Below are positions 14,057-54,138 of a stretch of DNA of 64,000 bases, piece after piece. A program made the translations under genes and the position numbers. Source of the stretch: Actinophytocola sp. (lineage in GTDB: Bacteria > Actinomycetota > Actinomycetes > Mycobacteriales > Pseudonocardiaceae); contig WHUD01000007.1 in NCBI GenBank assembly GCA_009377385.1, positions 1-64,000 of the forward strand, given 5' to 3'. Under the pieces are notes generated by a model. It was not told the DNA's origin. It saw only the letters and a program-made list of their open reading frames with translations, and ran no database searches. How positions within the stretch are numbered: the stretch's first letter is position 1; every line of letters starts with the position of its first letter.

Positions 14057-14950
14057 TTAAGCGGCCTCGCGTGCGGTCGGCATGACTTCCAGCGCGGCCA
14101 GCGCGGGGCCTATCTGGCTGGGAATGTCGACCACGGTCGCCCCAGCGGCCCGTAGCGCGGCCACCTTGGACTCGCCGCTGCCCGCTCCCGCGGTCACGAT
14201 CGCACCGGCATGGCCCATCCTGCGGTGCGGCGGCGCGGTGCGGCCCGCGATGAACGCGACCGTCGGCACGCCGGACGCCGCGATCAGCTCGGCCGCGTCC
14301 TCCTCCATCGCGCCGCCGATCTCCCCGACGACCACGATCGCGTCGGTGCCGTCGTGGTCGACGAGGGTGGCGATGGCCTCCCTTGTCGTCGTGCCGAGGA
14401 TCGGGTCGCCGCCGATGCCGATGAACGCCGATTGCCCGTACCCCGAGGTGATCAGGTCCATCGAGACCAGCGTGCCGAGGCTTCCGCTGCGGGAGACGAC
14501 GCCGACGGTGCCCTTGGCGAAGATGTTGGGCGCGAAGCCGGGCATGATGCCGACGCTGGCCTCGCCGGGCACGACAAGGCCAGCTGTGTTCGGGCCGAGC
14601 ACCCGCGTACCCGCCGCGCGAGCCGCCGCGAGCATGGCCATGACGTCGTGCGACGGGATGTGCTCTGCGAGGCAGACCACCTTGCCGATGCCCGCCTCGA
14701 CGGCGTCGACCACCGCCGTCCGCGCGCGCAGCGGCGGCACGAACAGCACGCTCGCCGCGATGTCGTGCGCGACGGCCGCTTCGGCCACCGAGTCGTACAC
14801 CGGGACTTCGTGGATCCGCTGTCCGCCCCGGCCGGGACTGACGCCTGCCACGACGCGGGTGCCGCACGCCTGCATGCGCTCGGTCCAGAACCTGCCCTGC
14901 TTCCCGGTGATGCCCTGCACCAGGACGCCGTCATCGCCGGTAATGATCAC
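14057..14950 (-). CDS. Succinyl-CoA synthetase alpha-like acyl-CoA ligase subunit
   Basis: QGITGKQGRFWTERM; phosphohistidine region MGHAGAIV; IGIGGDPI. Confidence 0.88.
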   Translation of the reverse strand: MIITGDDGVLVQGITGKQGRFWTERMQACGTRVVAGVSPGRGGQRIHEVPVYDSVAEAAVAHDIAASVLFVPPLRARTAVVDAVEAGIGKVVCLAEHIPSHDVMAMLAAARAAGTRVLGPNTAGLVVPGEASVGIMPGFAPNIFAKGTVGVVSRSGSLGTLVSMDLITSGYGQSAFIGIGGDPILGTTTREAIATLVDHDGTDAIVVVGEIGGAMEEDAAELIAASGVPTVAFIAGRTAPPHRRMGHAGAIVTAGAGSGESKVAALRAAGATVVDIPSQIGPALAALEVMPTAREAA

Positions 14951-16113
14951 GAAGCCACCTCCTGCCGCTCCCGCGCCGCGGTGACCGCGGCGCGCACGGC
15001 GTCGTCCATCTGGTCGTGCGGTGTGATGCCGAGTCGGTCCCGCACCAGGGCGATGGCCTCCCGTTCGCCGGTGCCGTGGATGGTGAACGCGATGGGGATC
15101 TCGGGCCTGAGCTCGTCGATGGCGTTGAGCACGCCTTCGGTCATCACGTCGGTGCGGGCGAACGCGCCGCAGAAGTTCACCAGCAGCGAACGGACGTTCG
15201 GGTTCGACAGCACCAGCCGCAGCGCCGGTGTCGCCTTGGTGTACGCGTCGCCACCGATCTCGAGGAAGTTTGCCGGTTTGCCGCCGAAGTGGCTGATGGC
15301 GTCCACTGTGGTCATCGTCAGTCCCGCGCCGTTGGCCAGCACGCCGACATCGCCGTCCAGCTCGATGAACTGCAACCCGAGCCGCGCGGCCTCGCGTTCC
15401 AGGTCGGTGCCGGGTTCGATGGGGAGGACGCCCGGCAGCGTGTCGAGGGTGTGTTGCTGCCGGGGTGCTGCCGCCGTGTCGATGCTGACCTTCGCGTCGA
15501 TCGCGACCACGTCGCCAGCTTCGGTGAGCACGAGCGGGTTCACCTCGACCAGGCTCGCGTCGGTGTCCCGGTAGACGCGGTAGAGCCGTGTCAGTGCCGC
15601 CGCGACCGGGTCGGCGACGTCGGTGGGTAGCGCGGACCGCCGCACCAGCGTGAGCGCTGCGTTCGGCTCCAGCCCGGTCCTGATGTCGACGGCGAGCTTG
15701 TGCAGCCGCTCCGGCCTTGTGGCGCTGACCTCTTCGATTTCCATGCCACCGTCGGCCGACAACAGCACCAGCGGACCCTTCGACACCGGATCGTTGAGGA
15801 TCGCGGCGTAGAGCTCAGCCGCGATGTCGACGGCCTCCTCGACAAGCAGGCTCTCGACGCGGTGACCGCCGACGTCGCTGCCGAACAGCCGCGTGGCGAT
15901 GTCGTGCGCCTCGGCCGGGGAGGTGACGAGCTGGACGGCCCCTGCCTTGCCGCGCCTGCCCGCCGGGACCTGCGCCTTGCAGACGACACGGCCGCCAAGC
16001 CGCTCGGCCGCGTGCGCCGCGTCGGCTGGCGAGCTGACCAGTGTGCCGCGTGGCACGGCGATCCCGGCCTCGCGTAGCAGGTGTTTTCCTTGGTGCTCAA
16101 GCAGATCGACCAT
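14947..16113 (-). CDS. Succinyl-CoA synthetase beta-like acyl-CoA ligase subunit
   Basis: LLEHQGKHLLREAGIAVPRG; EVNPLVLTEAGDVVAIDAKV; NGAGLTMTTVDAISHFGGKPANFLEIGG. Confidence 0.88.
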   Translation of the reverse strand: MVDLLEHQGKHLLREAGIAVPRGTLVSSPADAAHAAERLGGRVVCKAQVPAGRRGKAGAVQLVTSPAEAHDIATRLFGSDVGGHRVESLLVEEAVDIAAELYAAILNDPVSKGPLVLLSADGGMEIEEVSATRPERLHKLAVDIRTGLEPNAALTLVRRSALPTDVADPVAAALTRLYRVYRDTDASLVEVNPLVLTEAGDVVAIDAKVSIDTAAAPRQQHTLDTLPGVLPIEPGTDLEREAARLGLQFIELDGDVGVLANGAGLTMTTVDAISHFGGKPANFLEIGGDAYTKATPALRLVLSNPNVRSLLVNFCGAFARTDVMTEGVLNAIDELRPEIPIAFTIHGTGEREAIALVRDRLGITPHDQMDDAVRAAVTAARERQEVAS

Positions 16114-16117
16114 ACCG

Positions 16118-17542
16118 TCACCGCCCGTACCGCTGGAAGTAGCCCTCGAACAGGTCCTGCTCGGACGGTTCGCGGGGTGGGATGACCCGCGCGAGGCGGG
16201 TGGTGTTGATGAAGTGCCGGTAGGAGAGGTTCTCGCTGATGCTGTTGCCCGCCCAGGTGCCGGCGCCCATCGTCAGCGTGAAGCCGAGGCCGTTGTCGAA
16301 GCTGCCGCCGTTGCCGATGCAGTGGGCCTGGTTGACGAGCACTCGCGCCACCCGGAGCCGTTCCGCGACCAGGCGCGCCCTGCTGCCGTTGGCGGTGTGG
16401 ATGCCGCAGGAGTGACCGGCGCCCTGGAAGTCGAGCAGGTCCTGGATCCGGTCGAGCGCGGCGTCGAGGTCGCGCCATCGGTACACCGCCAGCACAACGG
16501 ACAGCTTCTCCCCGCTGAACGGGTGCGCCGGCCCGATGCCGTTCTCGGCCACCATGAAGAAGCTCGCCGCCCGCGCCTCGGGGTGGTCGAGGCCTGCGAG
16601 CTCGGCGATGGTGGCCGGTGACTTGGCGGTGACGCGCTGGCTCAGCCTGCCGTCCGGCCACATCACGTCCCGCAGCTGTGCGGTCTCGGCTGCGTCGAGC
16701 AGGTAGCCGCCCTCGGCTCGCAGCGCGTCGAGCATGTCGTCGTAGACGTCGTCGTGGATGTGGACGGAGTTCTCCGAGGAGCAGCTGGTCGCGTAGTCGA
16801 ACGTCTTGCTGATCTTTATTTTGCGAGCGGCGTCGGCGAGGTCGGCGTCGTGGTCGACGATGACCGGAGCGTTGCCGACGCCGACCCCGATCGCGGGGGT
16901 GCCGGAGCTGTAGGCAGCCTTGACGTTGCGCTGCGAGCCGGTCACCACGACGAAGTCCGCCTGGCGCATCAGCTCGTACGTGAGTGGCTTGGTGGGCTTC
17001 TCGACGAACTGCACCAGGTCGAGCGGAGCGCCGACCTTATCGAGCTGTCCGTGGATGTAGGAGACGAGCAGCGCGCAGGTCGATGCACCCTTCGGGGACG
17101 GCGAAATGATGACGGCGTTGCCGCCCTTGAGCGCCATCATGGTCTTGTTCGCCGGGGTCGCCGCCGGGTTGGTCGACGGGCAGACGGCGGCGACGACGCC
17201 CATCGGCTTGGCGTACTCGGTGATGCCGAGCTCCGGCAGTTCGCGGATCACGCCGACGGACGGGGCGCCGGTCAGGTCGCGCAGGGTGCCAAGCGTCTTC
17301 CTGCGGTTCTTGGTGACCTTGTCCTCGACGTTGCCGAGCCCGGTGTCGCGCACCGCCAGCTCGGCGAGTGCCCGCGACCGTGCCGGCTCGATGATCGACC
17401 ACGCCACGGCGGCGACCACGTCGTCGACACGTTCCTGGGTGAAGGTCTCGAAAGCGCGCTGCGCCGTGCGGGCGCGCCGCGTCAGCGAGCTGATGGTGTC
17501 GGCAACGTCGGTGTCTTCTCGGGTCTGGCTGGCCACGGTCAT
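16118..17542 (-). CDS. CoA-acylating aldehyde dehydrogenase, sulfoacetaldehyde dehydrogenase (SauS)-like
   Basis: TSCSSENS catalytic Cys motif, PSTNPAATPANKTMMALKGGNA, GAGHSCGIHTAN, GTWAGNSISENLSYRHFIN; family is clear, substrate is tentative. Confidence 0.8.
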   Translation of the reverse strand: MTVASQTREDTDVADTISSLTRRARTAQRAFETFTQERVDDVVAAVAWSIIEPARSRALAELAVRDTGLGNVEDKVTKNRRKTLGTLRDLTGAPSVGVIRELPELGITEYAKPMGVVAAVCPSTNPAATPANKTMMALKGGNAVIISPSPKGASTCALLVSYIHGQLDKVGAPLDLVQFVEKPTKPLTYELMRQADFVVVTGSQRNVKAAYSSGTPAIGVGVGNAPVIVDHDADLADAARKIKISKTFDYATSCSSENSVHIHDDVYDDMLDALRAEGGYLLDAAETAQLRDVMWPDGRLSQRVTAKSPATIAELAGLDHPEARAASFFMVAENGIGPAHPFSGEKLSVVLAVYRWRDLDAALDRIQDLLDFQGAGHSCGIHTANGSRARLVAERLRVARVLVNQAHCIGNGGSFDNGLGFTLTMGAGTWAGNSISENLSYRHFINTTRLARVIPPREPSEQDLFEGYFQRYGR

Positions 17543-21964: not shown

Positions 21965-23539
21965 TCACTCCAGCGGGTCCGTGTCAGGCCCGAGCACGCG
22001 GTGCGTCAGGCGTTCGGACTGTGGGGGGATGTCGTGGACGTCGGCCTCCAGCCCTGCGGCACGGGCCTGGTCGAGCAGCGAGCGGAGCACCAGCGCGCCG
22101 GTGGTGTCGATCCTGCCGAGCCGGTTGAGCTCGATCACCAGCCGGGTGGCGTCGGGGTGGTCGGCGAGCGCGTCGAGCAGGGTGGCATCCAGCCGTTGCG
22201 CGGTGCTGAACCACAGCACGCCCCTCGGGGTGAAGGTGAGGACGCCGTCGTGCTCGGCGACGTCGATCTCCAGTTGCAGCGACCGCCACAGGAACACGCC
22301 GACCGACAGCCCGACCCCGGCAACCACGGCGAGGTCGATCCGGGGCGCGAGCAGCAGCGTCGCCACGAACGTCGTCCAAGCGATCAGCGCCTGCGGCAGC
22401 GAGAGCCGCCACAGCCGCAGCAGTGGACGGACGCGCATCAGCCCGAGCACCGAGACGATCACGATCGCGCCAAGCACGGCGAGCGGCAGTGGTTCGAGCA
22501 CGGCGGCGAACGGCAGGAACGCCAGCACCGTCAGCCCGGTGACCGCGCCAGCCACCCTGCTGCGGGCGCCGGAGAGCCGGTTCACCGAGCTGCGGGAGAA
22601 CGACCCGCCGCACGGCATACCGCCGAACGTGGCCGCCGCGATGTTGGCCGCGCCCTGGCTGATGAACTCGCGGTTCGCGCTCCATCGGGTGCGCTCCTCC
22701 GATGCGAACCGCCGCGAGATCGACGCCGCCTCGGAGAACCCGACCAGTGCGATGATCGCCCCGGACAGCACCAGCGTCGGCAGCTTCGTCCACGAAATGT
22801 CGTCCAGCGTGAACGGCAGAAACCCGGACGGGACCGCGCCGACGACCTCGCCGGAGTAGAAGCCCATGCCGGACACCGCGACGCCGACGAGCGCCGCAAC
22901 CAGCACGCCGGGGAACAGCGCGTGCAGCTTGCGCCCGCCCAGGATGAGCAGCGCCGTCATCGCCGTCATCAGCATCGCGGCCATGGCCCATCGGTCCGGG
23001 TTCGACAGCGCCCACACCGCCTGCAGGATCACGTTGTCGTAGTCGGGCGGGGACGTGCCGAGCGCCTTCGGCAGCTGCGAGCTGGCGATCAGGATCGCCG
23101 ACGCCGGCACGAAGCCGAGCAGCATCGGCTGCGACATCAGGTACGCCACCCAGCCCGCGCGCAGCAGCCCGAGCAGCACCCTTGTCAGGCCGACGACGAG
23201 GGCCAGCGCCAGCCCCAGCCCGACGTACTCCGGGCTGCCCGGCGTCGCCATGGTGCTGAGCGCGCCGAACGTCAGCAGCGAGGTGATCGCGACCGGCCCG
23301 GTCTGCAGGTACGGCGACGACGCGAACAGCGCCGCGATGATCGGCGGCAGCGCCCCCGCGTAGAGCCCCACGATCGGCGGCATCCCGGCCAGGTCGGCGT
23401 AGGCGAGCGACTGCGGGATGCCGATCATCGCCACGCTGACACCGGCGAGTAGATCGTGCCCGAGCCAATTGCGCCACGACGGACGTCCGCCGTGGTCAGC
23501 GTTCCGTCGTGGCCACGAGGTCAATTCCCGCAGGTTCAC
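21965..23539 (-). CDS. SulP-family anion permease with STAS domain
   Basis: GVSVAMIGIPQSLAYADLAGMPPIVGLYAG; C-terminal STAS. Confidence 0.92.
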   Translation of the reverse strand: MNLRELTSWPRRNADHGGRPSWRNWLGHDLLAGVSVAMIGIPQSLAYADLAGMPPIVGLYAGALPPIIAALFASSPYLQTGPVAITSLLTFGALSTMATPGSPEYVGLGLALALVVGLTRVLLGLLRAGWVAYLMSQPMLLGFVPASAILIASSQLPKALGTSPPDYDNVILQAVWALSNPDRWAMAAMLMTAMTALLILGGRKLHALFPGVLVAALVGVAVSGMGFYSGEVVGAVPSGFLPFTLDDISWTKLPTLVLSGAIIALVGFSEAASISRRFASEERTRWSANREFISQGAANIAAATFGGMPCGGSFSRSSVNRLSGARSRVAGAVTGLTVLAFLPFAAVLEPLPLAVLGAIVIVSVLGLMRVRPLLRLWRLSLPQALIAWTTFVATLLLAPRIDLAVVAGVGLSVGVFLWRSLQLEIDVAEHDGVLTFTPRGVLWFSTAQRLDATLLDALADHPDATRLVIELNRLGRIDTTGALVLRSLLDQARAAGLEADVHDIPPQSERLTHRVLGPDTDPLE

Positions 23540-43463: not shown

Positions 43464-44360
43464 GTGACTGACTACCGACGTCCCGTGCGGTTCGGGGTTT
43501 TTCCGACACCGGACGCCGACCGGGTGGACGGCATCCTGACGATCGCCTCGGTTGCCGACCAGGACGGGCTGGACCTCATCGGCATCCAGGACCACCCGTA
43601 TCAACGGCGGCATCTGGACGCCTGGGCGCTCATGGCGACGGTGCTGGCGCGCACCGAACGGGTGCGGGTGTTCCCGGACGTCGCCAGCCTCCCGCTGCGG
43701 GACCCCGCCGTCATGGCGAAGACCGCCGCAAGCCTGGATGTCCTCTCGGGCGGGCGGTTCGAGCTCGGTCTCGGCGCTGGTGCGTTCTGGGACGCCATCG
43801 CCGCCATGGGCGGGCCGCGACGCTCCGCGCGGGACGCGGCGGACGCGCTGGTCGAGGCGATCGAGGTCATCCGACTGATGTGGTCGGGGGAGCGGTCGGT
43901 GCGATTCGACGGCGTCCACCACCGGCTCGTCGGTGTCACGCCTGGCCCGTCGCCCGCGCATGACATCGGGCTGTGGCTAGGCGTGACCGGGCCTCGGATG
44001 CTCGGCGTGCTCGGCCGCAGCGCCGACGGCTGGATCCCGTCGTCCAGCTACGTGCCGCCGGAGACACTGGCCGAGAAACACGCGCGCATCGACGACGCGG
44101 CCGTGCAGGCCGGCCGGAACCCCGCCGACATCCAGCGGATCTACAACGTGTTCGGCTCGATCACCGACGGGTCACCGTCCGGGTTCCTGCACGGACCGGT
44201 GGACCAGTGGGTCGACGCGCTGACCGAGCTGGTGCTCGACGGCGGCATGGACACCTTCGTATTCGCCGCGCAGGACGACGACCTGGGGCAGATCCGCCGC
44301 TTCGCCCGTGAGGTCGCGCCCGCCGTCCGGGAGGCGGTCGCGCGCGAACGCGGTGAATGA
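43464..44360 (+). CDS. LLM-class (luciferase-like) flavin-dependent oxidoreductase
   Basis: GIQDHPYQRRHLDAWALMATVLARTERVRVFPDVASLPLRDPAVMAKTAASLDVLSGGRFELGLGAG. Confidence 0.93.
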   Translation: MTDYRRPVRFGVFPTPDADRVDGILTIASVADQDGLDLIGIQDHPYQRRHLDAWALMATVLARTERVRVFPDVASLPLRDPAVMAKTAASLDVLSGGRFELGLGAGAFWDAIAAMGGPRRSARDAADALVEAIEVIRLMWSGERSVRFDGVHHRLVGVTPGPSPAHDIGLWLGVTGPRMLGVLGRSADGWIPSSSYVPPETLAEKHARIDDAAVQAGRNPADIQRIYNVFGSITDGSPSGFLHGPVDQWVDALTELVLDGGMDTFVFAAQDDDLGQIRRFAREVAPAVREAVARERGE

Positions 44361-44379
44361 CGTTGCGTCAGGCAGGGAG

Positions 44380-44432
44380 GAGCCGAACGGGGCGTTCGGC
44401 ACGCAATGTGCACCGAACGCCCCGTTCGGCTC
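44380..44432. terminator. Perfect 20-bp arm inverted repeat GAGCCGAACGGGGCGTTCGG / CCGAACGCCCCGTTCGGCTC
   Basis: Arms 44380-44399 and 44413-44432, 13-nt loop, downstream of LLM gene stop. Confidence 0.85.
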
Positions 44433-44465
44433 GCAGCGAAGGCGTCATACCGCACCCGCCTCGAT

Positions 44466-44490
44466 ACCTATCCGATCGGACAGGTACGGC
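44466..44490. promoter_or_regulatory. Near-palindrome ACCTATCCGA/TCGGACAGGT; candidate response-regulator site
   Basis: Upstream of Fe-ADH; CGATCGGACAGGTACGGC matches the 52919-52936 motif at 14/18. Confidence 0.5.
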
Positions 44491-44578
44491 CATCGGAGTG
44501 AACGGTGTGCGGCCCATCACACAGGCATTAGCCTGGAGGGGTTCTGGCCGCGACACCGGACAACCGAGGAGTGTTCAC

Positions 44579-45886
44579 GTGTCTCACCTGACCCCGGCCA
44601 TCGACGCGATGCCGCCAGGCTCGCTCGCCTGGTCGCAGCCGGAGCGAAACGGCGCCGACCTGCTCAGCGACCCGGACACCGTGCCGGACGAGCTGAGCGG
44701 TCCCCGCACCGCGATGCCGGATTCGATCGAGTCCGCGTTCCAACTCGCCAAGTTCCACGCCCCCGAGATCGTGCTCGGTCCCGGCTCGCTCGCGGAACTC
44801 GGCCACGCGGCGCTGCGGGTCGGTGCAAGGAGGCCGTTCCTGGTCACCGACGGTGGCATTCAGGAGGCGGGCTGGGTGGCCGAGGCGGTCGGGCACCTCC
44901 AGCTGGCAGGCCTCCGCCCGGTCGTATGGTCGGACATCACCCCGAACCCCAAGGACCGCGAGGTGCAGGCCGCCTACGAGCAGTACGTCGCTAGCGCTGG
45001 CGACGTGATCATCGCGGTGGGCGGCGGGTCCTGCATCGACGCGGCGAAGGGCGTGGCGATCCTGTCAAGCAACGGCGGCACCATCCTCGGCTACGCGGGC
45101 GTGGACAAGGTGACCCAGCCGATCCCGCCGCTGGTCATGGCGCCATCGACGTCCGGGACCGGCGCGGACGTGTCGCAGTTCGCCGTCATCACCGACACCG
45201 CGCAGCGCACGAAGATCACCATCATCAGCCGGACACTTGTCCCTGAGATCTCGATCATCGACCCCCGGCTGCTGATCACGATGCCGGACGACCTCAACGC
45301 CGCCACCGGCCTCGACGCGCTCACCCACGCGATCGAGGCCTACGTCTCCCGCGCACACAACCGGCTCACCGACCACCACGCGCTGCACGCCGCGCACCTG
45401 ATCACCAAGCACCTGCAACGCACGCTGCTGCAGCCGACGAAGGCCGAGTCAAGGATCGCGATGGCGCAGGGTGCGCTCGAGGCGGGGATGGCGTTCACCA
45501 ACGCGATCCTGGGCGTCACCCACGCGATGAGCCACCAAGTCGGCGGCCTGCTCGACGCCCCGCACGGCGTGCTGAACGGCGTGCTGCTGCCGCACGCGAT
45601 CCGGTTCAACGCCGCGTTCGCCCCGGAACGCTACGTGCCGCTGGCCGCGGCGGTAGGCATCGACGTCCACGGCACGTCCGCCATAGAGGTCGCGGACCTG
45701 CTGGCCAGCTACGTGCGTCGCCTCGCAGACGCGGTGGGCGTGCCCAAGGGCCTCGCCGATCTCGGCGTCACCGAGGCGGACATTCCGACCCTGGCCCGCA
45801 CCACGCTCAACGACGCCTGCCTCGCCACCAACCCGAGGGACGCGAGCGCCGCCGACATCGAGTGGCTGCTACGGCAGGCGTTGTAA
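44579..45886 (+). CDS. Iron-containing alcohol dehydrogenase (1,3-propanediol dehydrogenase-like)
   Basis: VGGGSCIDAAKGVAIL, APSTSGTGADVSQFAVI, GVTHAMSHQVGGLLDAPHGVLNGVLLPH. Confidence 0.92.
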   Translation: MSHLTPAIDAMPPGSLAWSQPERNGADLLSDPDTVPDELSGPRTAMPDSIESAFQLAKFHAPEIVLGPGSLAELGHAALRVGARRPFLVTDGGIQEAGWVAEAVGHLQLAGLRPVVWSDITPNPKDREVQAAYEQYVASAGDVIIAVGGGSCIDAAKGVAILSSNGGTILGYAGVDKVTQPIPPLVMAPSTSGTGADVSQFAVITDTAQRTKITIISRTLVPEISIIDPRLLITMPDDLNAATGLDALTHAIEAYVSRAHNRLTDHHALHAAHLITKHLQRTLLQPTKAESRIAMAQGALEAGMAFTNAILGVTHAMSHQVGGLLDAPHGVLNGVLLPHAIRFNAAFAPERYVPLAAAVGIDVHGTSAIEVADLLASYVRRLADAVGVPKGLADLGVTEADIPTLARTTLNDACLATNPRDASAADIEWLLRQAL

Positions 45887-47275
45887 ATGGACAATGCGAC
45901 GGACCGCGACGTCAGCGATGCCTACCTGGGCGCCCTCACCGGCGTCCGGTCGGGGAAACGATCGTTCTACCCGGAGTACGTCCGGTCGGCTGAACGGCTG
46001 GAGAACGCCGTCCGCGCGCTGGACCGCATCTCCCGCGCGCTCGTCGTCACCGGCGAGGGTCCCCGCGCGCTGGTCGAGGCGGTCGTCGCGACAGCGACCG
46101 AGCACCTGCAGGCCGACTGGCTGCTCGTCGCTGTCGCCGACGGCGCGCTGCAGGCGGCCCGGCCAAGGTTCCTGTTCTCCGCAGGCGACGACCTGATCGA
46201 CGACGAGCACCGGCTGCCGCACAGCGCGCTGGAGCAGCTGCGGGTGCTGCGTTGTCGGCCGTGGGAGGCCGAGCACGAGGACGTCAGCGCGGACTACCAG
46301 CACACCGGCATCGTGCGTGTCGGGATGACGCTGGACGGCGAGCCGGTCGGTGGAATCGCCGCGCGGCCTGGTCCCGCCGTCACGGTCGCGGACACCGACC
46401 TGGCGCTGCTGCGGGTGCTGGCCAACCACGCGGCGGTCGCGCTGCACAACTCGTTTCTGCTGCACGCGACGACGCGGCTGCGGGGCAGGACGGAGCAGTT
46501 GTCGGAGACGGCGGAGCAGCGTGCCCGTGACCTCGCCGCGCGCAACGCCGAGCTGGCCGAGACGCAGCAGCGGCTCATCGCGGCGATGCAGCGGCAGGCG
46601 CTGGACGACGAGCGGCACCGGATCGCGCGGGAACTGCATGACAGCGTCACACAGGACGTCCTCTCGGCGGGCATGACGATCGAGCTATGCCGCGCGGAGC
46701 TGGCCGATGCCCCGGACGATCTTGAGCCGACGATCGAGCGGCTCAGCGCCGCGAAGGATCTCACCCGACACGCGGTTGAGCGGTTGCGGGCGGCGATCTA
46801 CGCGCTGCACAACACCGCGGAGGAGTCGTCGGGCTCGCTGCCTGTGCTGCTGGAGCGGCTGTCCACAGTACACCTGCCGAGCGACCTGAAGGTACAAGTC
46901 ACGGTCACCGGCGAGCCGGTCGCGCTGCCGGGGGAGGCGGAGCACTCGCTGCTGCGGCTGACCGGGGAGGCGCTGTTCAACATCGTGATGCACACCAACG
47001 CGACGCAGGCGCAGGTGCGGCTGCGCTACCTGGCGCGCACGATCGTGCTCACGATCTCCGATGACGGCGACGGCGACCCGGCGCATCTGCGCAAAATGCT
47101 GCGACTGGCCTCGGCCGCCGATCTCGCCGGGGAACACAGGGGCCTGGCGAACATGGCGGCGCGCACCGCGGATCTCGACGGGACGATGTCGATCCGCAAG
47201 TCACGCCACGGCGGCATCATGCTGCGATTCGAGATACCCGCACCAGAGCGGAACGACAGGAGGGCGGCGGGATGA
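45887..47275 (+). CDS. GAF-domain sensor histidine kinase (HisKA_3; MnoS-like)
   Basis: RHRIARELHDSVTQDVLSAGMTIE; HATPase GLANMAARTADLDG; starts directly after ADH stop. Confidence 0.92.
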   Translation: MDNATDRDVSDAYLGALTGVRSGKRSFYPEYVRSAERLENAVRALDRISRALVVTGEGPRALVEAVVATATEHLQADWLLVAVADGALQAARPRFLFSAGDDLIDDEHRLPHSALEQLRVLRCRPWEAEHEDVSADYQHTGIVRVGMTLDGEPVGGIAARPGPAVTVADTDLALLRVLANHAAVALHNSFLLHATTRLRGRTEQLSETAEQRARDLAARNAELAETQQRLIAAMQRQALDDERHRIARELHDSVTQDVLSAGMTIELCRAELADAPDDLEPTIERLSAAKDLTRHAVERLRAAIYALHNTAEESSGSLPVLLERLSTVHLPSDLKVQVTVTGEPVALPGEAEHSLLRLTGEALFNIVMHTNATQAQVRLRYLARTIVLTISDDGDGDPAHLRKMLRLASAADLAGEHRGLANMAARTADLDGTMSIRKSRHGGIMLRFEIPAPERNDRRAAG

Positions 47276-47946
47276 ACGTACGGGAGCGGTCGGTCATGGT
47301 GCGGTCACGCGGACGGGAACTGACGATCGTGCTCGTGGACGACCACGCCATCGTCCGGCAGGGGCTGCGCTCGATCCTGGAGCGCGAGGACGACATGTGC
47401 GTGGTGGGGGAGGCGACCACCGCCGCCGAGGCCAGGACGGTGATCGACCGGCTCCGGCCGGACTTCGTGCTGCTCGACCTCAAGCTGTCCACTGGGTCCG
47501 ACACCGAGGGGCTGGAGGTGTGCTCCGAGCTCACCGAGCGGTATCCGGACATCGGGGTGCTGGTGCTGACGACGTTCCTCGACGACGCGCTAGTGCTCGA
47601 GGCGATCCACCGGGGCGCCAAGGGCTACGTGATCAAGGACGTCGACACAAGCGGCCTGGTGTCGTCGATCCGGGCGGTGGCGCGCAACGAGAGCGCGTTC
47701 GACTCCCGATCGGCCTCGGTGATGGTGCGTTCGATCCGCACCGCCCCTGACGAGCCAACGCTGACCGAACGGGAGCAGGGCGTGCTGGAGCTGCTCGCGC
47801 ACGGGCTGAGCAACCGCGACATCGGCCGCAGGCTGTTCATCTCCGAGACCACGGTCAAGTTCCACGTCCGCAACATCATGCGGAAGCTATCCGCGTCCAG
47901 CAGGGCCGAGGCGGTCTACGAGGCCAGCAAGATGGGTTTGATCTGA
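47272..47946 (+). CDS. NarL/LuxR-family response regulator (MnoR-like)
   Basis: VLVDDHAIVRQGLRSILE; LTEREQGVLELLAHGLSNRDIGRRLFISETTVKFHVRNIMRKL; ATGA overlap with kinase. Confidence 0.93.
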   Translation: MNVRERSVMVRSRGRELTIVLVDDHAIVRQGLRSILEREDDMCVVGEATTAAEARTVIDRLRPDFVLLDLKLSTGSDTEGLEVCSELTERYPDIGVLVLTTFLDDALVLEAIHRGAKGYVIKDVDTSGLVSSIRAVARNESAFDSRSASVMVRSIRTAPDEPTLTEREQGVLELLAHGLSNRDIGRRLFISETTVKFHVRNIMRKLSASSRAEAVYEASKMGLI

Positions 47947-47947
47947 G

Positions 47948-48832
47948 CTACGCCATGTCGATCACGAGCCAGCCGCCGTGGTGCTCGGTCACCGTGAACG
48001 GCCGCCCGGTCCACCGTCCGATCTCCGTCAGCGTTGCGACGTCGAAGGTGCGGATGTGGCCGTAAGTCGGATCGGGGACGTCCTCGAACGGCACGGCGAT
48101 GACCACCCAGTTCGCGGCAAGCCGGACCGCCTCGGTGACGACCCTGGTGCCGTCCGCCTGGTCGAGGTGCTCAAGCAGATGCAGCACCGTGACGGTGTCG
48201 ACCGATCGATTGGGCAGCGGGACGCTGGTGGCGTCGCAGGGAAGCGTCTCGATCGGCACGTCGAGGGTATCGGCGATCGCCGCAAGCAGGCGCATGCTCC
48301 CTGGCACGACGTCCGATGCGATCACCGAGGTGTCGCCGCGATCGGCGAGGAGCAGCGGGAAGAAGCCGAAGCAGGACGCGAGATCGAGCACCCTGCCCGG
48401 CGGGGTGAGCTGGAGCGCGCGGTCGTACACCGGAATCATGTCCGCGATGACCGAACCCGGCGCTCCGCCGTCCGCTGTGGCGTGTCGGATCTTGGCCAGT
48501 GTGTTGGCGTAGAAGGTGTGCCACGCCCGCAGCGGATCGCTCATCGCCGACCGGACGACGCCGGTCAGCACTCGTTCGAAGACGTCGTTGCCGGTCAGCC
48601 AGCCGGGGCGGAACAGCTCGTCGTCCAGCAGTCCGGCCAGGTCGTTGTCGAGCTCCTCCGGCCGCAGCCAATGGCGCAGCTCGATCCGTCTGTCCTGCCT
48701 GCGGAGCTGGAAGTGCGCCGTCGTGGTGATGGCCTTCCCCGAGCCGGGTTGCCCTTGGGGAACGCCGCAGACAACGCGCACCCGGTCGTCGCCATCTCGG
48801 AGTGACAACGGATCGAGCATCGCGCCGCTCAT
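47948..48832 (-). CDS. SAM-dependent methyltransferase, MftM-like (mycofactocin glycan methyltransferase)
   Basis: RVLDLASCFGFFPLLLADRG motif I; locus context matches the mycobacterial methanol dehydrogenase/MftM neighbourhood as recalled. Confidence 0.7.
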   Translation of the reverse strand: MSGAMLDPLSLRDGDDRVRVVCGVPQGQPGSGKAITTTAHFQLRRQDRRIELRHWLRPEELDNDLAGLLDDELFRPGWLTGNDVFERVLTGVVRSAMSDPLRAWHTFYANTLAKIRHATADGGAPGSVIADMIPVYDRALQLTPPGRVLDLASCFGFFPLLLADRGDTSVIASDVVPGSMRLLAAIADTLDVPIETLPCDATSVPLPNRSVDTVTVLHLLEHLDQADGTRVVTEAVRLAANWVVIAVPFEDVPDPTYGHIRTFDVATLTEIGRWTGRPFTVTEHHGGWLVIDMA

Positions 48833-50352
48833 CGGCCCACGACCGCCGTGGTCAGCTCGCGCGCGGTGCGCTCGAGCCCGGACAGGTCGCGCACCACCCG
48901 CACCCGGTCGCAGTACTCGGCGTAGCCCGGCAGGTCGCAGCCGCCGAGGCCCCACGAGTAGCGCGGTTCCGGGGTGAGCCAGATGGTCTCCCGCGCCCGC
49001 CGGGTCAGCTCCGCGAACCCGGCGAGGTTCGGGTCGTTGCCGTTGCCCCTGCCGTCGCCGAGCACGAGCAGCGTGGTGCGCCGGGTGACCGCCGAGGCGT
49101 ACTCGCCGAGGAACTCGCTGATCACGGTGCCGTAGTCGGAGTTCGCGTCGACGTCGAGCACGTCGCCGCCGAAGATCAGCCCGAGGGCGCGTTCGGCAGG
49201 ATGGTCCGCGAACAGCTCCGTCGTCTCGGCGATGTCCGCCACGAACGCGAACGACCGCACCTGCGCGAACAGATCTTGCAGGCCGTGCACCAGGTGCAGG
49301 GTGAACCGCGCCGTCGCCCGGACCGACAGGCTGACGTCGGCCAGCACAACCAGCCGGGGCTTGTCCTCGGCACGCCGCACCGTCACCGGCGCGAACGGCA
49401 CGCCGTCGTAGCGCATGTTGCGGCGCATCGTCTTGCCGGGATCGACCCTGCCGACCGGCGACACCCGCCTGCGGTGGGTGAGCGCGCCCCGCAGCGTGCG
49501 CGCCAGCCTGCGCAGCGACTCCTCGAGATCGGCACGCTCCCGCTCGGCCACACTATCCACTGTGGCCACCCGCTGCTCCCGTGACTCGACCGCGCGGGTC
49601 TCAAGCGAGAGCAACGACTCCAGGTGCCGCTTGAGCGCCTGCGGCAGGTTCGCCAGCACCCCCGCCATGCGGGTGCGCAGCGCGGCGGCGTCCGACTCGT
49701 CCCCGGTCTGGTCCTCCTGGTCGTTGAGCCAGCCGAGCAGTGCCTCGGTCTCGGCGATGGTCAGCTCGGCGTCCACTGTGGTGCCGCTGTCACCGGCGAG
49801 CCTGCCTGGCGTGCCCGCGCCGTGCAGCCGTTCGGTGTCGAGCTGCACCCGGTAGCCCTCGCTGCCCGCGACGACGTCGTTGTCCTTGGAGAACACGATC
49901 TCGTCCGTCAGCGAGGCGATGTCGATCTTGTTCGCCTCCTGGTGCAGGTTGTAGCGCTGCGCCAGGTCATCCTGGTCGAAGTACTCCCTGATGCTGGACG
50001 GCTTGCCGTGCTCGTGACCCTGCTGCGGCGTCTGGCTCGGCTCGTCGGACAGCGTGAACGACTCGAGCTCGCCGGTGTCGGTCAGGTCGTCGTGCTCGTG
50101 GCTGTGGCCATGCCCTCCGGCCTCGCCACCGACCTTCACCAGCGCGAAGAAGGCGTCGAAGACCTCGTCGAACGCCGGCTCGTCGCGCCGGTCCTTGACC
50201 AGCGCGACCCGCAGCGCCGCCCGCAGCCGCTCCTTGTCGGCGAGCACGCCCGGCTGCGCGGCGCAGCGGAGCGCGTCGAGCACCTCGGGAACCGAGACGC
50301 GCACCCCGTAGAGCCGCAGCAGCCGGACGAACCGGTGGATCGTGGCTTCCAC
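48829..50352 (-). CDS. VWA/CoxE-like protein, partner of MoxR ATPase
   Basis: MIDAS DVSLSV; partner ATPase upstream; His-rich GHGHSHEHDD; stop overlaps MftM-like start (ATGA). Confidence 0.88.
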   Translation of the reverse strand: MEATIHRFVRLLRLYGVRVSVPEVLDALRCAAQPGVLADKERLRAALRVALVKDRRDEPAFDEVFDAFFALVKVGGEAGGHGHSHEHDDLTDTGELESFTLSDEPSQTPQQGHEHGKPSSIREYFDQDDLAQRYNLHQEANKIDIASLTDEIVFSKDNDVVAGSEGYRVQLDTERLHGAGTPGRLAGDSGTTVDAELTIAETEALLGWLNDQEDQTGDESDAAALRTRMAGVLANLPQALKRHLESLLSLETRAVESREQRVATVDSVAERERADLEESLRRLARTLRGALTHRRRVSPVGRVDPGKTMRRNMRYDGVPFAPVTVRRAEDKPRLVVLADVSLSVRATARFTLHLVHGLQDLFAQVRSFAFVADIAETTELFADHPAERALGLIFGGDVLDVDANSDYGTVISEFLGEYASAVTRRTTLLVLGDGRGNGNDPNLAGFAELTRRARETIWLTPEPRYSWGLGGCDLPGYAEYCDRVRVVRDLSGLERTARELTTAVVGR

Positions 50353-50361
50353 CGCCAGCTC

Positions 50362-51519
50362 CTACAGCGCCCTGCGGCGGGCGAACGACCGGCTGCCCTG
50401 CCCGGAGTTCACCGGCATCCGTTGCTGCTTGCCCGACGAGTTGCCGTAGTAACCCTCGTCGAACCGGCCGGGCTCGTCCTTGGCCGCCCGCACCGCAGCG
50501 CCATCGGGCTCCTCGTGATGGTGATACCCGTGGTGATGGTGGTGGCCGTGGTGGTGATGCCCGTGGCTCAGCGACGCCGGCACCTCGGCGTTCGGGTCGA
50601 CCAGGCGCGGCAACGCGTCCAGTGCCTTGTCGACGTCCTTGTCGTACTTGACCACCACCGACACGGTGTCCGCCAGCAGCTGCGCCGAGAGTTCCTCCGA
50701 GCCGAGCACCGCGAGCGTGCGCGCCCAGTCGATCGTCTCCGAGATGCTGGGTGCCTTGCGCAGCTCCAGCTCGCGGAGCCCGCGCACGATGTGCACCAGC
50801 TGTTCGGCCAGCGCGTCGGGGAGTCCGGTCCGCTTGCTGCGCACGATCTCCAGCTCCCGATCCGCCGCCGGATAGTCCAGGAACAGGTGCAGGCACCGCC
50901 GTTTCAGCGCCGCAGCGAGGTCGCGGGTGTTGTTCGACGTCAGGACGACGTAGGGCCGTTGGTCTGCCGTGAACGTGCCGACCTCCGGGATCGAGATCTG
51001 GTACTCGCCCAGCATTTCCAGCAGCACGGCTTCCAGGGCCTCGTCGGCCCGGTCCACCTCGTCGACCAGCAGCACGGCTGGCTGTTCCGAGCGCACCGCC
51101 TCCAGCAGCGGCCGGGGCGCGAGGAACCGCTCGGAGAAGAACACGCTCTCCTGCGCGCCGATGCGTGTCACGGCGTCGTGCAGCGTGGCCGCGTCGGCGA
51201 CCACCTCGCCGATCTTGTCCCGCAGCATCTGGGTGTAGAGCAGCTGCTTGCCGTAGTCCCACTCGTACAACGCCTTGGTCTCGTCCTGGCCCTCGTAGCA
51301 CTGCAACCGGATCAGCCTGCGCCCGGTGGCCGCCGCGAGCACCTTGGCGAGCTCGGTCTTGCCGACCCCGGCCGGGCCCTCGATCAGGACCGGCTTGTCC
51401 AGCCTCGTCTGCAGGAAGACCGTGGTGGCCAGCCGGGAGTCGGTGATGTAGCCCTGCTCGGCCAGCGCGGCGCCGACGTCGTCGACCGAGTCGAACGGGC
51501 CCTCAGCTGAGCAGGTCAT
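50362..51519 (-). CDS. MoxR-type AAA+ ATPase with poly-His C-terminal tail
   Basis: IEGPAGVGKTELAKVLA Walker A; VLLVDEVDRAD Walker B; tail SHGHHHHGHHHHHGYHHHEE. Confidence 0.92.
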   Translation of the reverse strand: MTCSAEGPFDSVDDVGAALAEQGYITDSRLATTVFLQTRLDKPVLIEGPAGVGKTELAKVLAAATGRRLIRLQCYEGQDETKALYEWDYGKQLLYTQMLRDKIGEVVADAATLHDAVTRIGAQESVFFSERFLAPRPLLEAVRSEQPAVLLVDEVDRADEALEAVLLEMLGEYQISIPEVGTFTADQRPYVVLTSNNTRDLAAALKRRCLHLFLDYPAADRELEIVRSKRTGLPDALAEQLVHIVRGLRELELRKAPSISETIDWARTLAVLGSEELSAQLLADTVSVVVKYDKDVDKALDALPRLVDPNAEVPASLSHGHHHHGHHHHHGYHHHEEPDGAAVRAAKDEPGRFDEGYYGNSSGKQQRMPVNSGQGSRSFARRRAL

Positions 51520-52795
51520 CCAGCTCGCCATTCATGCTGTGGTCCACGACCGGCCGGACGGTCTCGAATGTGCACTCCTTCGGGTTGCCCGGCGTGCAGG
51601 CGTCGCCGAGGACGTGATTGGTGATGCGGTCGACGTCGGTGTCGTCGCCCTTGATCACCGAGGCCTGCTCGTAGAACTTCGTCGGGCCCTGCCCGAGCCG
51701 GTTCTTGGAGTAGCTGTCCTGCTTGACGTCGACGAACCGCTCCGGGATGCCGACGTCACGCAGCAGCCGGATCGACGCGGCCAGCGCGGCGTCGGCGGCC
51801 TGAACGTCGGTCATGCCGTGGGTGTCGACGCCCATCGCGCCCGCCATCTCCGCGAATCGCTTGTACGCCACCGGCATGTTGAACGCCCACACGCGCGGCA
51901 GCGCGATCGCGTTGTTGAGGCCGTGGTGGGTGTCGTAGAACGCGCTCACCGCGTGCGAGATCGAGTGGATGATGCCCAGCCCGCCGGAGTTGAACGCCTG
52001 CGCCGCGATGTACTGCGCGTACATCATGCCCTCGCGGCCGGACAGCTCGGTCGGGTTCCAGGTGGCCTGCCGCAGGTTCTCGGCGGTCAGCTTGATCGCG
52101 CGCAGCGCGTTGCCAAGCGAGGGCTCGAAGTTCAGCCGCGACACGTATGGCTCGGAGGCGTGCGCAAGCACGTCGAAACCGCACTGCGCGGTGTAGTCGA
52201 TCGGGCAGTCGTAGTACAGCGTCGGGTCGTCGATCGCCAGCGACGTCACCGAGTTGTCGTCGAAGGCCACGTACTTGTGCGGGTTGTCCGGGTCGGTGGT
52301 GGTGTCGGTGATGACATACGCCCAGGACGTCTCCGAGCCGGTGCCCGCCGTCGTCGACACCGCGATGTGCGGCGGGTTGTTCGGGTTCTCCGACTTGTTG
52401 AAGCCCTCGAAGTCGTTGACGTTGCGGCCGTCGTGCGCGACCGAGATCCGCGCGCCCTTACATGCGTCGTGCGATGAGCCGCCGCCGATGGAGACGAAGC
52501 TGTCGCACTTGTTCTCCTGGTACAGCGCGACGGAGTCCATCACGTTGTAGTCCTTGGGATTGGACTCGACCTTGTCGTAGACGACGACGTCCAGCCCGTG
52601 GTACTTCATCGACTCCACGATCTTGTGCACGGTGTCGGAGCCGCGCAGCCCGGTGGTCATCACGAGCGTCTTCTTGAAGCCGAGGTTCTTTGCCTCCGGC
52701 CCGATCATCTCGTGCGCGCCGGGGCCCATCAGGGCACGCGGGAACGGGTGGAACTCCTTGATCGGGAATGGCTTGAGTAGTTCGTCTACCTGCAT
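51503..52795 (-). CDS. mdo: NDMA-dependent methanol dehydrogenase (Mno/Mdo-type Fe-ADH superfamily)
   Basis: FPIKEFHPFPRALMG, LVMTTGLRGS, DKVESNPKDYNVMD, SIGGGSSHDACKGARI, STTAGTGSETSWAYVITDT, GLGIIHSISHAVSAFYDTHHGLNNAIALPRVW. Confidence 0.9.
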   Translation of the reverse strand: MQVDELLKPFPIKEFHPFPRALMGPGAHEMIGPEAKNLGFKKTLVMTTGLRGSDTVHKIVESMKYHGLDVVVYDKVESNPKDYNVMDSVALYQENKCDSFVSIGGGSSHDACKGARISVAHDGRNVNDFEGFNKSENPNNPPHIAVSTTAGTGSETSWAYVITDTTTDPDNPHKYVAFDDNSVTSLAIDDPTLYYDCPIDYTAQCGFDVLAHASEPYVSRLNFEPSLGNALRAIKLTAENLRQATWNPTELSGREGMMYAQYIAAQAFNSGGLGIIHSISHAVSAFYDTHHGLNNAIALPRVWAFNMPVAYKRFAEMAGAMGVDTHGMTDVQAADAALAASIRLLRDVGIPERFVDVKQDSYSKNRLGQGPTKFYEQASVIKGDDTDVDRITNHVLGDACTPGNPKECTFETVRPVVDHSMNGELDDLLS

Positions 52796-52918: not shown

Positions 52919-52936
52919 GCGGTACCTATCCGGCCG
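52919..52936. promoter_or_regulatory. GCGGTACCTATCCGGCCG; reverse complement CGGCCGGATAGGTACCGC resembles the site upstream of the propanediol-DH-like gene
   Basis: 14/18 identity with 44473-44490 in same orientation relative to gene. Confidence 0.5.
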
Positions 52937-53130
52937 AACGGGGCGGTCCGGGGCGGTTGGTGTTGATCTTGATCCGCTTGACCGCGTGTTCGTGCTGGCT
53001 GTGGATCTTGATGCTGAGTGGCGGTAGGTACAGCCGAAACGCATCATGATCGGAACGGTGACTACCCGACGGCAGGATCGGCGGCGACAGACGCCGCCGG
53101 TCCACCGAGCAGAGTTCGTCGTCGCCCGCG

Positions 53131-54138
53131 TTATCGCGCCGAGTCGCGTGCCCGCTCGCGATGACCCTGGATGGCGCCGGAGTGCGCCTTGACCGTGGGA
53201 TCCCGCCGGACCTTGACCAGGCTCGCCACCGTCACGACCGTCAGCACCACCACGATCACGCCGAGGCTCACCGGTGTCGGGATCTCCGGCACGCTCTTGC
53301 TGACGTCGAGGTGCGCCCACTGCAGCAACAGCTTCACCCCGATGAACGCCAGGATGATCGACAGCCCGGTCGAGAGGTACACCAGCCGGTCGAGCAGGCG
53401 CTTCACCAGGAAGTACAGCGCCCGCAGCCCGAGCAGTGCGAAGGCGTTGGCGGCGAAGACGATGTACGGCTCCTGAGTGATACCGAAGACCGCTGGGATC
53501 GAGTCGACGGCGAACAAGACGTCGATGGTGCCGATGGCCAGCAGCACGATGAACAGCGGCGTGACCTTCCGTCGGCCGTCCACCCGCGCGAGGAGCTTGC
53601 CGTCGACATAGTCCTCGCTGAGCGGCAAGACCTTGTGCGCGGTGCGGATGACAACACTGTCCTCGACGTCCGGGTCCTCGTCGCGATGGCGGAACAGCTG
53701 GATCGCCGTGTAGATCAACAGCAACCCGAACAGCGCGAACACGAACGAGAACAGCGAGATCAGGCTCGCGCCAAGCGCGATGAAGACCGCGCGCATAGCC
53801 AGCGCCAGCACGATTCCGAACGTGAGCACCTTGTGCTGATGCCGCTCCGGCACGGTGAACGTCGTCATGATGAGGACGAACACGAACAGGTTGTCGACCG
53901 AAAGGCTCTTCTCGACGAGGTAGCCGGTGAAGTACTCGACGCCGAAGTCGCCGCCATGCTGCAGGGTGAACCAGACACCGAAGGCGACCGCGACGAGGAC
54001 GTAGAACGTCGACCAGGCAGCGGCCTCACCGAAGCCGACCCGGTGCGGGCGCACCGTCGCCACCACCAGGTCCACCGCGAGCAGGGCGAGAATCAGCCCC
54101 ACGGTGACGGCCCAGGTGAGCCAACCGATCTCCAGCAT
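53131..54138 (-). CDS. TerC-family integral membrane protein
   Basis: EYFTGYLVEKSLSVDNLFVFVLI, DVLFAVDSIPAVFGIT. Confidence 0.95.
   Translation of the reverse strand: MLEIGWLTWAVTVGLILALLAVDLVVATVRPHRVGFGEAAAWSTFYVLVAVAFGVWFTLQHGGDFGVEYFTGYLVEKSLSVDNLFVFVLIMTTFTVPERHQHKVLTFGIVLALAMRAVFIALGASLISLFSFVFALFGLLLIYTAIQLFRHRDEDPDVEDSVVIRTAHKVLPLSEDYVDGKLLARVDGRRKVTPLFIVLLAIGTIDVLFAVDSIPAVFGITQEPYIVFAANAFALLGLRALYFLVKRLLDRLVYLSTGLSIILAFIGVKLLLQWAHLDVSKSVPEIPTPVSLGVIVVVLTVVTVASLVKVRRDPTVKAHSGAIQGHRERARDSAR

Follow-up and report, generated by a model that had tools for sequence, protein, structure and literature searches.

The mdo locus of Actinophytocola sp.

The stretch of DNA analysed here (the window) comprises 64,000 nucleotides of contig WHUD01000007.1 from Actinophytocola sp. 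(assembly GCA_009377385.1), and its minus strand encodes an N,N-dimethyl-4-nitrosoaniline (NDMA)-dependent methanol dehydrogenase (Mdo) followed by a MoxR-type AAA+ ATPase and a partner with a von Willebrand factor type A (VWA) domain, the latter two carrying histidine-rich segments. A first-pass annotation made from the sequence alone had proposed that this MoxR/VWA pair loads metal into the dehydrogenase or activates it. The features that bear on this proposal are as follows.

51503–52795, minus strand: mdo, NDMA-dependent (mycofactocin-type) methanol dehydrogenase, 430 residues, type III iron-type alcohol dehydrogenase fold (TIGR04266, 691 bits, equivalog cut-off 625; PF00465/PF25137); ATG at 52795
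Within 51503–52795, minus strand: Mdo metal ligands D208, H212, H277 and H291 (Asp-His3)
50362–51531, minus strand: MoxR-type AAA+ ATPase, MadB-like, 389 residues, Walker A GPAGVGKT and LLVDEVDRAD (NF047784 MadB, 387 bits, below the cut-off of 475)
50509–50568, minus strand: His-rich stretch in the C-terminal tail of MoxR (13 of 20 residues are His), predicted disordered
50362–50508, minus strand: conserved C-terminal MoxR peptide after the His segment (DGAAVRAAKDEPGRFDEGYYG ... GQGSRSFARRRAL), partly kept even in His-less orthologues
48829–50352, minus strand: VWA partner, CoxE-like/MadC-like, 507 residues (PF05762, 108 bits, gathering threshold 26.4; NF047783 MadC, 287 bits, below the cut-off of 600)
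50086–50118, minus strand: VWA linker His motif 1, GGHGHSHEHDD, residues 79–89, its state matching that of the MoxR tail in 182 of 182 distinct units
50002–50025, minus strand: VWA linker His motif 2, QQGHEHGK, residues 110–117 (QRGLTPGK in locus L050)
49324–49338, minus strand: DxSxS (D339-V-S-L-S343) of the metal ion-dependent adhesion site (MIDAS) in the VWA domain, from a 28-sequence alignment

The start of the MoxR reading frame overlaps the mdo stop, and ends overlap or nearly overlap along the whole same-strand series of mdo, MoxR, VWA and then mftM. The neighbour named in the first-pass annotation is indeed a dehydrogenase of the NDMA-dependent type according to its TIGR04266 score, and the four Asp-His-His-His ligand columns of the iron-type alcohol dehydrogenases are invariant in all 217 aligned Mdo sequences. 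A mycofactocin radical SAM gene scoring well over its cut-off was found elsewhere in the host genome.

MoxR residues 322–341 read SHGHHHHGHHHHHGYHHHEE in frame, and the 319 residues upstream of this tail contain just three His; at a background of 2.2% the probability of at least 13 His in 20 residues is about 2e-17. The tail is present as first described, with its position corrected from 50513–50569 to 50509–50568. Its His codons are a mixture of CAC and CAT broken by GGG, GGC and TAT, which rules out a pure DNA repeat. Both VWA segments reported from the first inspection were also recovered from the translated reading frame, and these two HxH motifs lie in a predicted disordered linker. Orthologous tracts are His-rich and vary freely in sequence (HGHGHGH, HTHDHDHPH, HHHHDGHHHH and others), the pattern expected if selection acts on composition rather than on exact sequence, and these stretches are probably metal-binding.

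Dedication of the MoxR/VWA pair to Mdo

Mdo was searched for in an order-wide sample of 399 genomes, and the loci of the Mdo-bearing genomes were compared together with those of four relatives. Mdo was found in 54 genomes, all of which carry mdo, MoxR and VWA in this order, as do the four relatives, with no other recognised gene in between. Across the same loci mftM, madS, madR and the gene for a second alcohol dehydrogenase (ADH2) shift in place or strand or are missing. A second scan of named genomes that used the VWA protein as seed gave 80 loci, 79 of which had enough sequence to test, and the mdo, MoxR, VWA order was present in every one of these (genera Mycobacterium/Mycolicibacterium, Amycolatopsis, Pseudonocardia, Actinomycetospora, Rhodococcus/Rhodococcoides, Saccharopolyspora, Williamsia and Streptomyces). 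Co-occurrence was assessed independently of adjacency in 298 genomes of a single genus, read as Mycobacterium, where Mdo and the MadC-type VWA protein were found together in 47 genomes, Mdo alone in one, VWA alone in one and neither in 249; the two exceptions are one 70%-complete genome and one fragment at a contig edge. Because of this invariant linkage and near-perfect co-occurrence, dedication of the MoxR/VWA pair to Mdo is strongly supported by the comparative data and constitutes our strongest result.

In L201 and L216 a second mdo copy stands alone, with no complete pair beside it. Both cases were considered as counter-examples and set aside, since each of the two genomes has a full mdo, MoxR, VWA unit at another site, on whose pair the solitary copy possibly relies. 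In three Pseudonocardia-like genomes (G878, G905 and G930) one mdo unit of each type (I and II, defined below) lie about 3 kb apart in tandem (L198/L199, L206/L207 and L213/L214), and other Pseudonocardia-like genomes hold the two types at separate sites.

Joint presence and loss of the His tracts

The His tracts were tallied over 182 distinct Mdo-linked units: tail and linker motifs occurred together in 142, both were missing from 40, and no unit carried a tract on one partner only. Two Mdo types are distinguished, namely type I (about 423 residues, about 62–68% identical to the window Mdo), in which all 23 distinct pairs are without His tracts, and type II (about 430 residues, 77–97% identical), in which 142 of 159 distinct units have them. 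The 17 tract-less type II units comprise one subclade (L084, L089, L094, L177, L180, L195, L231 and their kin) together with L083, L050 and L053. All MoxR paralogues inspected away from mdo were without the tail.

The trait was placed on a tree of concatenated Mdo, MoxR core and VWA sequences from which the His tracts had been excluded. In this tree tract-less L050 is nested with Amycolatopsis and tract-less L053 with Saccharopolyspora, and a single clade of all His-less rows was rejected by the approximately unbiased test (p 0.0005; 0.006 without L053). The starred branches of the tree force at least three changes of the trait and the best tree needs four; a tree of Mdo only had just two changes and too few independent pairs, and it was the concatenated tree that resolved L050 inside Amycolatopsis. 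As the His-less rows do not form one clade, joint loss happened repeatedly, with only three to four independent loss events in the sample, a number too small for a formal test of correlated evolution. Since the two tracts are jointly present or absent and never mixed, we conclude that they work together, their joint loss pointing to a shared use by the two proteins. In L050 the linker is otherwise kept, with QQGHEHGKP replaced by QRGLTPGKP, and the MoxR tail has lost its His and retained the end peptide PKVSADRGSRSF.

The VWA linkers of the His-less type II subclade (L084, L089, L094, L177, L180, L195 and L231) share a conserved QRPPRADMESPDA near the expected site of the second His motif, which possibly represents an alternative linker function.

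Predicted folds

AlphaFold2 models of MoxR and VWA were built on 28-sequence alignments. In the MoxR model the AAA+ core is for the most part predicted with confidence and the tail is disordered; the Walker A and B motifs are intact, and the fold is nearest to MoxR-class structures, with NorQ (9qh4 and others, alone and with NorD) and CbbQ as best PDB matches (E about 1e-11). The VWA model has a mean predicted local distance difference test score of 67 and should be read with care; its plan is a helical N-domain (residues 1–70), a disordered linker (about 72–197) that holds both His motifs, a helical stalk and a C-terminal VWA domain (about 292–507). The identity of this last domain is confirmed by the PF05762 score and by best PDB matches that include NorD and the MIDAS domain of midasin. 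The DxSxS motif is intact, as D339, S341, S343 and the distal D433 are invariant in the 28 sequences, and the MIDAS threonine position is perhaps taken by the invariant S405.

Relation to known MoxR/VWA systems

Like the window pair, NorQ and NorD are a MoxR protein and an adaptor with a C-terminal VWA domain that are encoded with one target metalloenzyme. They provide the best fold match for our MoxR and one of the best for our VWA protein, and the adaptors share a common plan, as in NorD, too, a disordered linker joins the N-domain to the VWA domain (PMC9976466). In the NorQD complex the motor grips the VWA protein and strains its linker, which is essential for iron insertion (PMC13036017). 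The His motifs of the window VWA protein would by analogy sit where force is applied in NorQD, a correspondence that is one of resemblance. The two systems differ in their targets, which are the membrane-bound nitric oxide reductase for NorQD and a soluble iron-type alcohol dehydrogenase for the window pair, and in the His-rich segment, which is present in the window pair and is not mentioned in the NorQD structure paper (PMC13036017).

CbbQ and CbbO resemble the window pair as a MoxR/VWA pair encoded downstream of its target enzyme genes, and CbbQ is a top fold match, whereas the CbbQ/CbbO target is rubisco, from which inhibitory sugar phosphates are removed with no role for metal, and CbbO is larger at about 770 residues. 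CoxD and CoxE of CO dehydrogenase, and likewise MSMEG_0748/0751, are also a MoxR and a VWA protein encoded next to a metalloenzyme, with a role in cofactor assembly, and the CoxE-like family PF05762 includes the window VWA protein; their target is CO dehydrogenase and not Mdo, and His-rich tracts are not reported for them in the available parts of the sources (PMC3471820, PMC12657314).

The best-scoring families for the window proteins are MadB (NF047784) and MadC (NF047783), with near full-length matches (residues 7–504 in the case of MadC) and scores below both equivalog cut-offs. The Mycobacterium VWA proteins that do pass the MadC cut-off come from genomes with the 423-residue type I Mdo, whose pairs are without His tracts. 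We therefore class the window pair with MadB/MadC, a named but functionally undescribed pair of which it would be a His-rich form; our literature search found no paper on MadB/MadC function and no source for the 'Mad' name. A conflict or defence role of the MoxR-VWA kind was also considered and dropped, as PADLOC gave no convincing match.

The mno operon of Mycobacterium smegmatis has the same gene order as the window in MSMEG_6242–6240 (methanol/alcohol dehydrogenase, AAA ATPase and 'hypothetical' protein), and the region MSMEG_6242–6236 contains the same gene set as the window locus. In M. smegmatis mno is regulated by MnoSR, and in mycofactocin mutants the dehydrogenase MSMEG_6242 and the ATPase MSMEG_6241 rise together; the papers found contain no report on the function of MSMEG_6240 or MSMEG_6241. 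MSMEG_6240–6242 fall 24–28-fold in a zur mutant and 3–5-fold in excess zinc (PMC7174638). This zinc regulation was considered as support for the tails and dropped, since MSMEG_6242 (46262 Da, pI 5.36) fits the His-less type I (46.2–46.4 kDa in Mycobacterium) and not the mycobacterial type II (47.0–47.2 kDa), and mdo itself varies with carbon source. The M. smegmatis zinc-regulon data thus probably concern the His-less type and do not bear on the tails.

Poly-His tails act as metal reservoirs in the nickel and zinc chaperones HypB, UreE, SlyD and CooJ. These proteins have other folds and are not AAA+ ATPases, and their likeness to the window tails is one of resemblance only.

Proposed mechanism and alternatives

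It is strongly supported by linkage and fold that MoxR and VWA form a NorQD-like machine dedicated to Mdo. One AAA+ remodelling machine would thus serve the NDMA/mycofactocin-type enzyme. On the model of NorQD and CbbQO, the VWA protein would be held by a hexamer of MoxR and would contact Mdo with its MIDAS face, and Mdo would be opened as the VWA linker is twisted at the expense of ATP. By analogy with these systems, docking through the MIDAS face and ATP-dependent opening of Mdo is the most likely mode of action; the invariant components suffice to support it, and it would fit either metal insertion or clearance of a nucleotide. Where present, the MoxR tail and the linker HxH motifs would act as a two-protein relay that collects divalent metal, with zinc as the best guess, and offers it to the Asp-His3 site while Mdo is held open. 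Such a relay is plausible from the co-varying tracts, the addition of a metal-binding function by the tracts is probable in most type II lineages, and the Asp-His3 site is in our view the most likely target. We consider the chances to be evenly balanced for this reading as a whole, in which a NorQD-like machine dedicated to Mdo uses its His tracts as a metal relay to the Asp-His3 site. More tentative, and in our judgement sooner wrong than right, is the formulation as a two-subunit AAA+ metallation machine for iron-type alcohol dehydrogenases, in which tail and linker HxH motifs would relay metal into the site of a decameric Mdo. In common with its relatives, the only enzymes for which this is known, Mdo presumably forms a decamer that binds NADP(H) tightly and contains Zn and Mg. 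A related decameric methanol dehydrogenase contains one Zn and one to two Mg per subunit (PMC3602061), and type III alcohol dehydrogenases can take several metals (PMC12926040).

Several observations weigh against a metal relay. The 40 tract-less units include a whole Mdo subfamily, so metal-binding segments are not found in every Mdo-linked pair and a relay cannot be the universal function of the system. The Mdo of these units retains the invariant Asp-His3 site, so a functional-looking enzyme does not depend on the tracts, and close Mdos (86–87% identical to that of the window) occur both with and without them. CbbQ, nearly as good a fold match as NorQ, acts as an activase rather than inserting metal, and the literature searched contains no report of mutants, metal content or binding, complex formation or an effect on Mdo for the pair. 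To our knowledge no dedicated metal-maturation factor exists for iron-type alcohol dehydrogenases generally, and none may be needed. We interpret the persistence of His-less pairs with close Mdo relatives as a sign that the tracts improve metal supply and are not essential, and tract-less units do not exclude NorQD-like metal insertion, because NorQD works without such tracts. Of the function first proposed for the pair, the assignment to Mdo has held up through adjacency (54 of 54), co-occurrence in the 298 genomes, NorQ/NorD-CbbQ folds and co-varying tracts, and the 40 tract-less units speak against strict loading by the tails; the invariant part of the system is equally compatible with an activation in which no metal is loaded.

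The main alternative is a CbbQO-like activase or repair system, in which the pair would expel an inhibitory or damaged nucleotide from Mdo and the His tracts would be a lineage-specific addition such as a metal-sensitive switch or buffer. That the pair is invariant and the tracts are not, and that CbbQ is among the top folds, both speak for it, as does the activation of rubisco by CbbQO through the VWA MIDAS (PMC4660213). Mdo presumably keeps NAD(P) tightly bound, mycofactocin-linked dehydrogenases hold non-exchangeable NAD (PMC3023750) and ADP-ribose strongly inhibits Bacillus methanol dehydrogenases (PMC12926040). The effect would be comparable to the Nudix activator that clears ADP-ribose from the Bacillus enzyme. 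However, such an activase does not account for His tracts that come and go jointly in two proteins. In addition, we know of no inhibitor of Mdo, and we regard this alternative as possible but rather doubtful.

The same joint behaviour would be accounted for by a metal staple, where tail and linker motifs are bridged by a divalent metal that holds motor and adaptor together, or makes their assembly dependent on metal supply, and is never passed to Mdo. Perfect co-occurrence with repeated joint loss and the predicted disorder of both segments, which are hence free to meet, agree with this idea, but NorQ and NorD associate by other contacts, namely a finger and the NorD C-terminus (PMC13036017), and His-less lineages retain the pair, which makes a staple improbable. 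The frequent proximity of mftM, ADH2 and madS/madR could suggest that the pair acts for one of these (in mycofactocin methylation, on the second alcohol dehydrogenase or on the two-component system) and not for Mdo; we consider this very improbable, as these genes are absent or rearranged in many loci where mdo, MoxR and VWA are constant, and the ADH2/MadS/MadR block lies on the opposite strand in the window. Almost no credence is given to the tracts being neutral low-complexity sequence. Although their length and exact sequence vary and some are near-pure HG or HD repeats, they have been retained across several families, in 142 distinct units, are confined to Mdo-linked MoxRs, match HxH motifs in a second gene perfectly and are written in mixed codons.

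If the relay reading is true, the pair would be the first dedicated maturase of the iron-type alcohol dehydrogenase family and the first MoxR/VWA pair to carry its own metal reservoir. Many actinomycetes have the NDMA/mycofactocin-type methanol dehydrogenase as an enzyme of alcohol oxidation, and it is a candidate component for synthetic methylotrophy. Should its activity or its metal depend on the pair, it would be inactive when expressed in another host on its own. Natural comparisons of close enzymes with and without tracts, such as the Amycolatopsis- and Saccharopolyspora-like pairs, make metal acquisition by a MoxR/VWA system testable.

Neighbouring genes, upstream region and remainder of the window

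The genes that accompany the unit in the window, and a putative operator, are listed here.

47948–48832, minus strand: mftM, mycofactocin oligosaccharide methyltransferase (NF041255, 339 bits, cut-off 200); its ATG overlaps the VWA stop (coupled)
47272–47946, plus strand: MadR (MnoR-like) response regulator (NF047785, 353 bits, cut-off 300)
45887–47275, plus strand: MadS (MnoS-like) sensor kinase (NF047786, 611 bits, cut-off 500)
44357–45886, plus strand: second iron-type alcohol dehydrogenase (ADH2), counterpart of the M. smegmatis '1,3-propanediol dehydrogenase' gene (NF041833, 463 bits, under the cut-off of 550); a recurrent but mobile neighbour
52923–52950, minus strand: operator-like imperfect palindrome CCGTTCGG..., of CCGATCGG type, about 146 bp upstream of mdo

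A CCGWYCGG/CCGAYCGR-type core was found in 134 of 217 mdo upstream regions in comparison to 15.6% of random 300-mers, with positions clustering at about 145 bp. A single site has been reported 137 bp upstream of MSMEG_6242, and the palindrome type is in line with it; on sequence grounds the palindrome upstream of mdo is a candidate MadR/MnoR operator. ARAGORN called a tRNA-Gly at 47669–47751 inside madR, which is probably a false positive. Upstream of mdo lies a gene for a TerC/Alx family metal-homeostasis membrane protein (53131–54138), which was rejected as a part of the system, as besides the window it occurs in L091 and in no other compared locus.

Elsewhere in the window (14947–17542 and 21965–23539), a gene for SauS, the acylating sulfoacetaldehyde dehydrogenase (786 bits, cut-off 600), adjoins one for a succinate-CoA-ligase-like beta subunit, a SulP-type transporter is encoded nearby, and from its gene content this region is likely a sulfoacetaldehyde degradation cluster.

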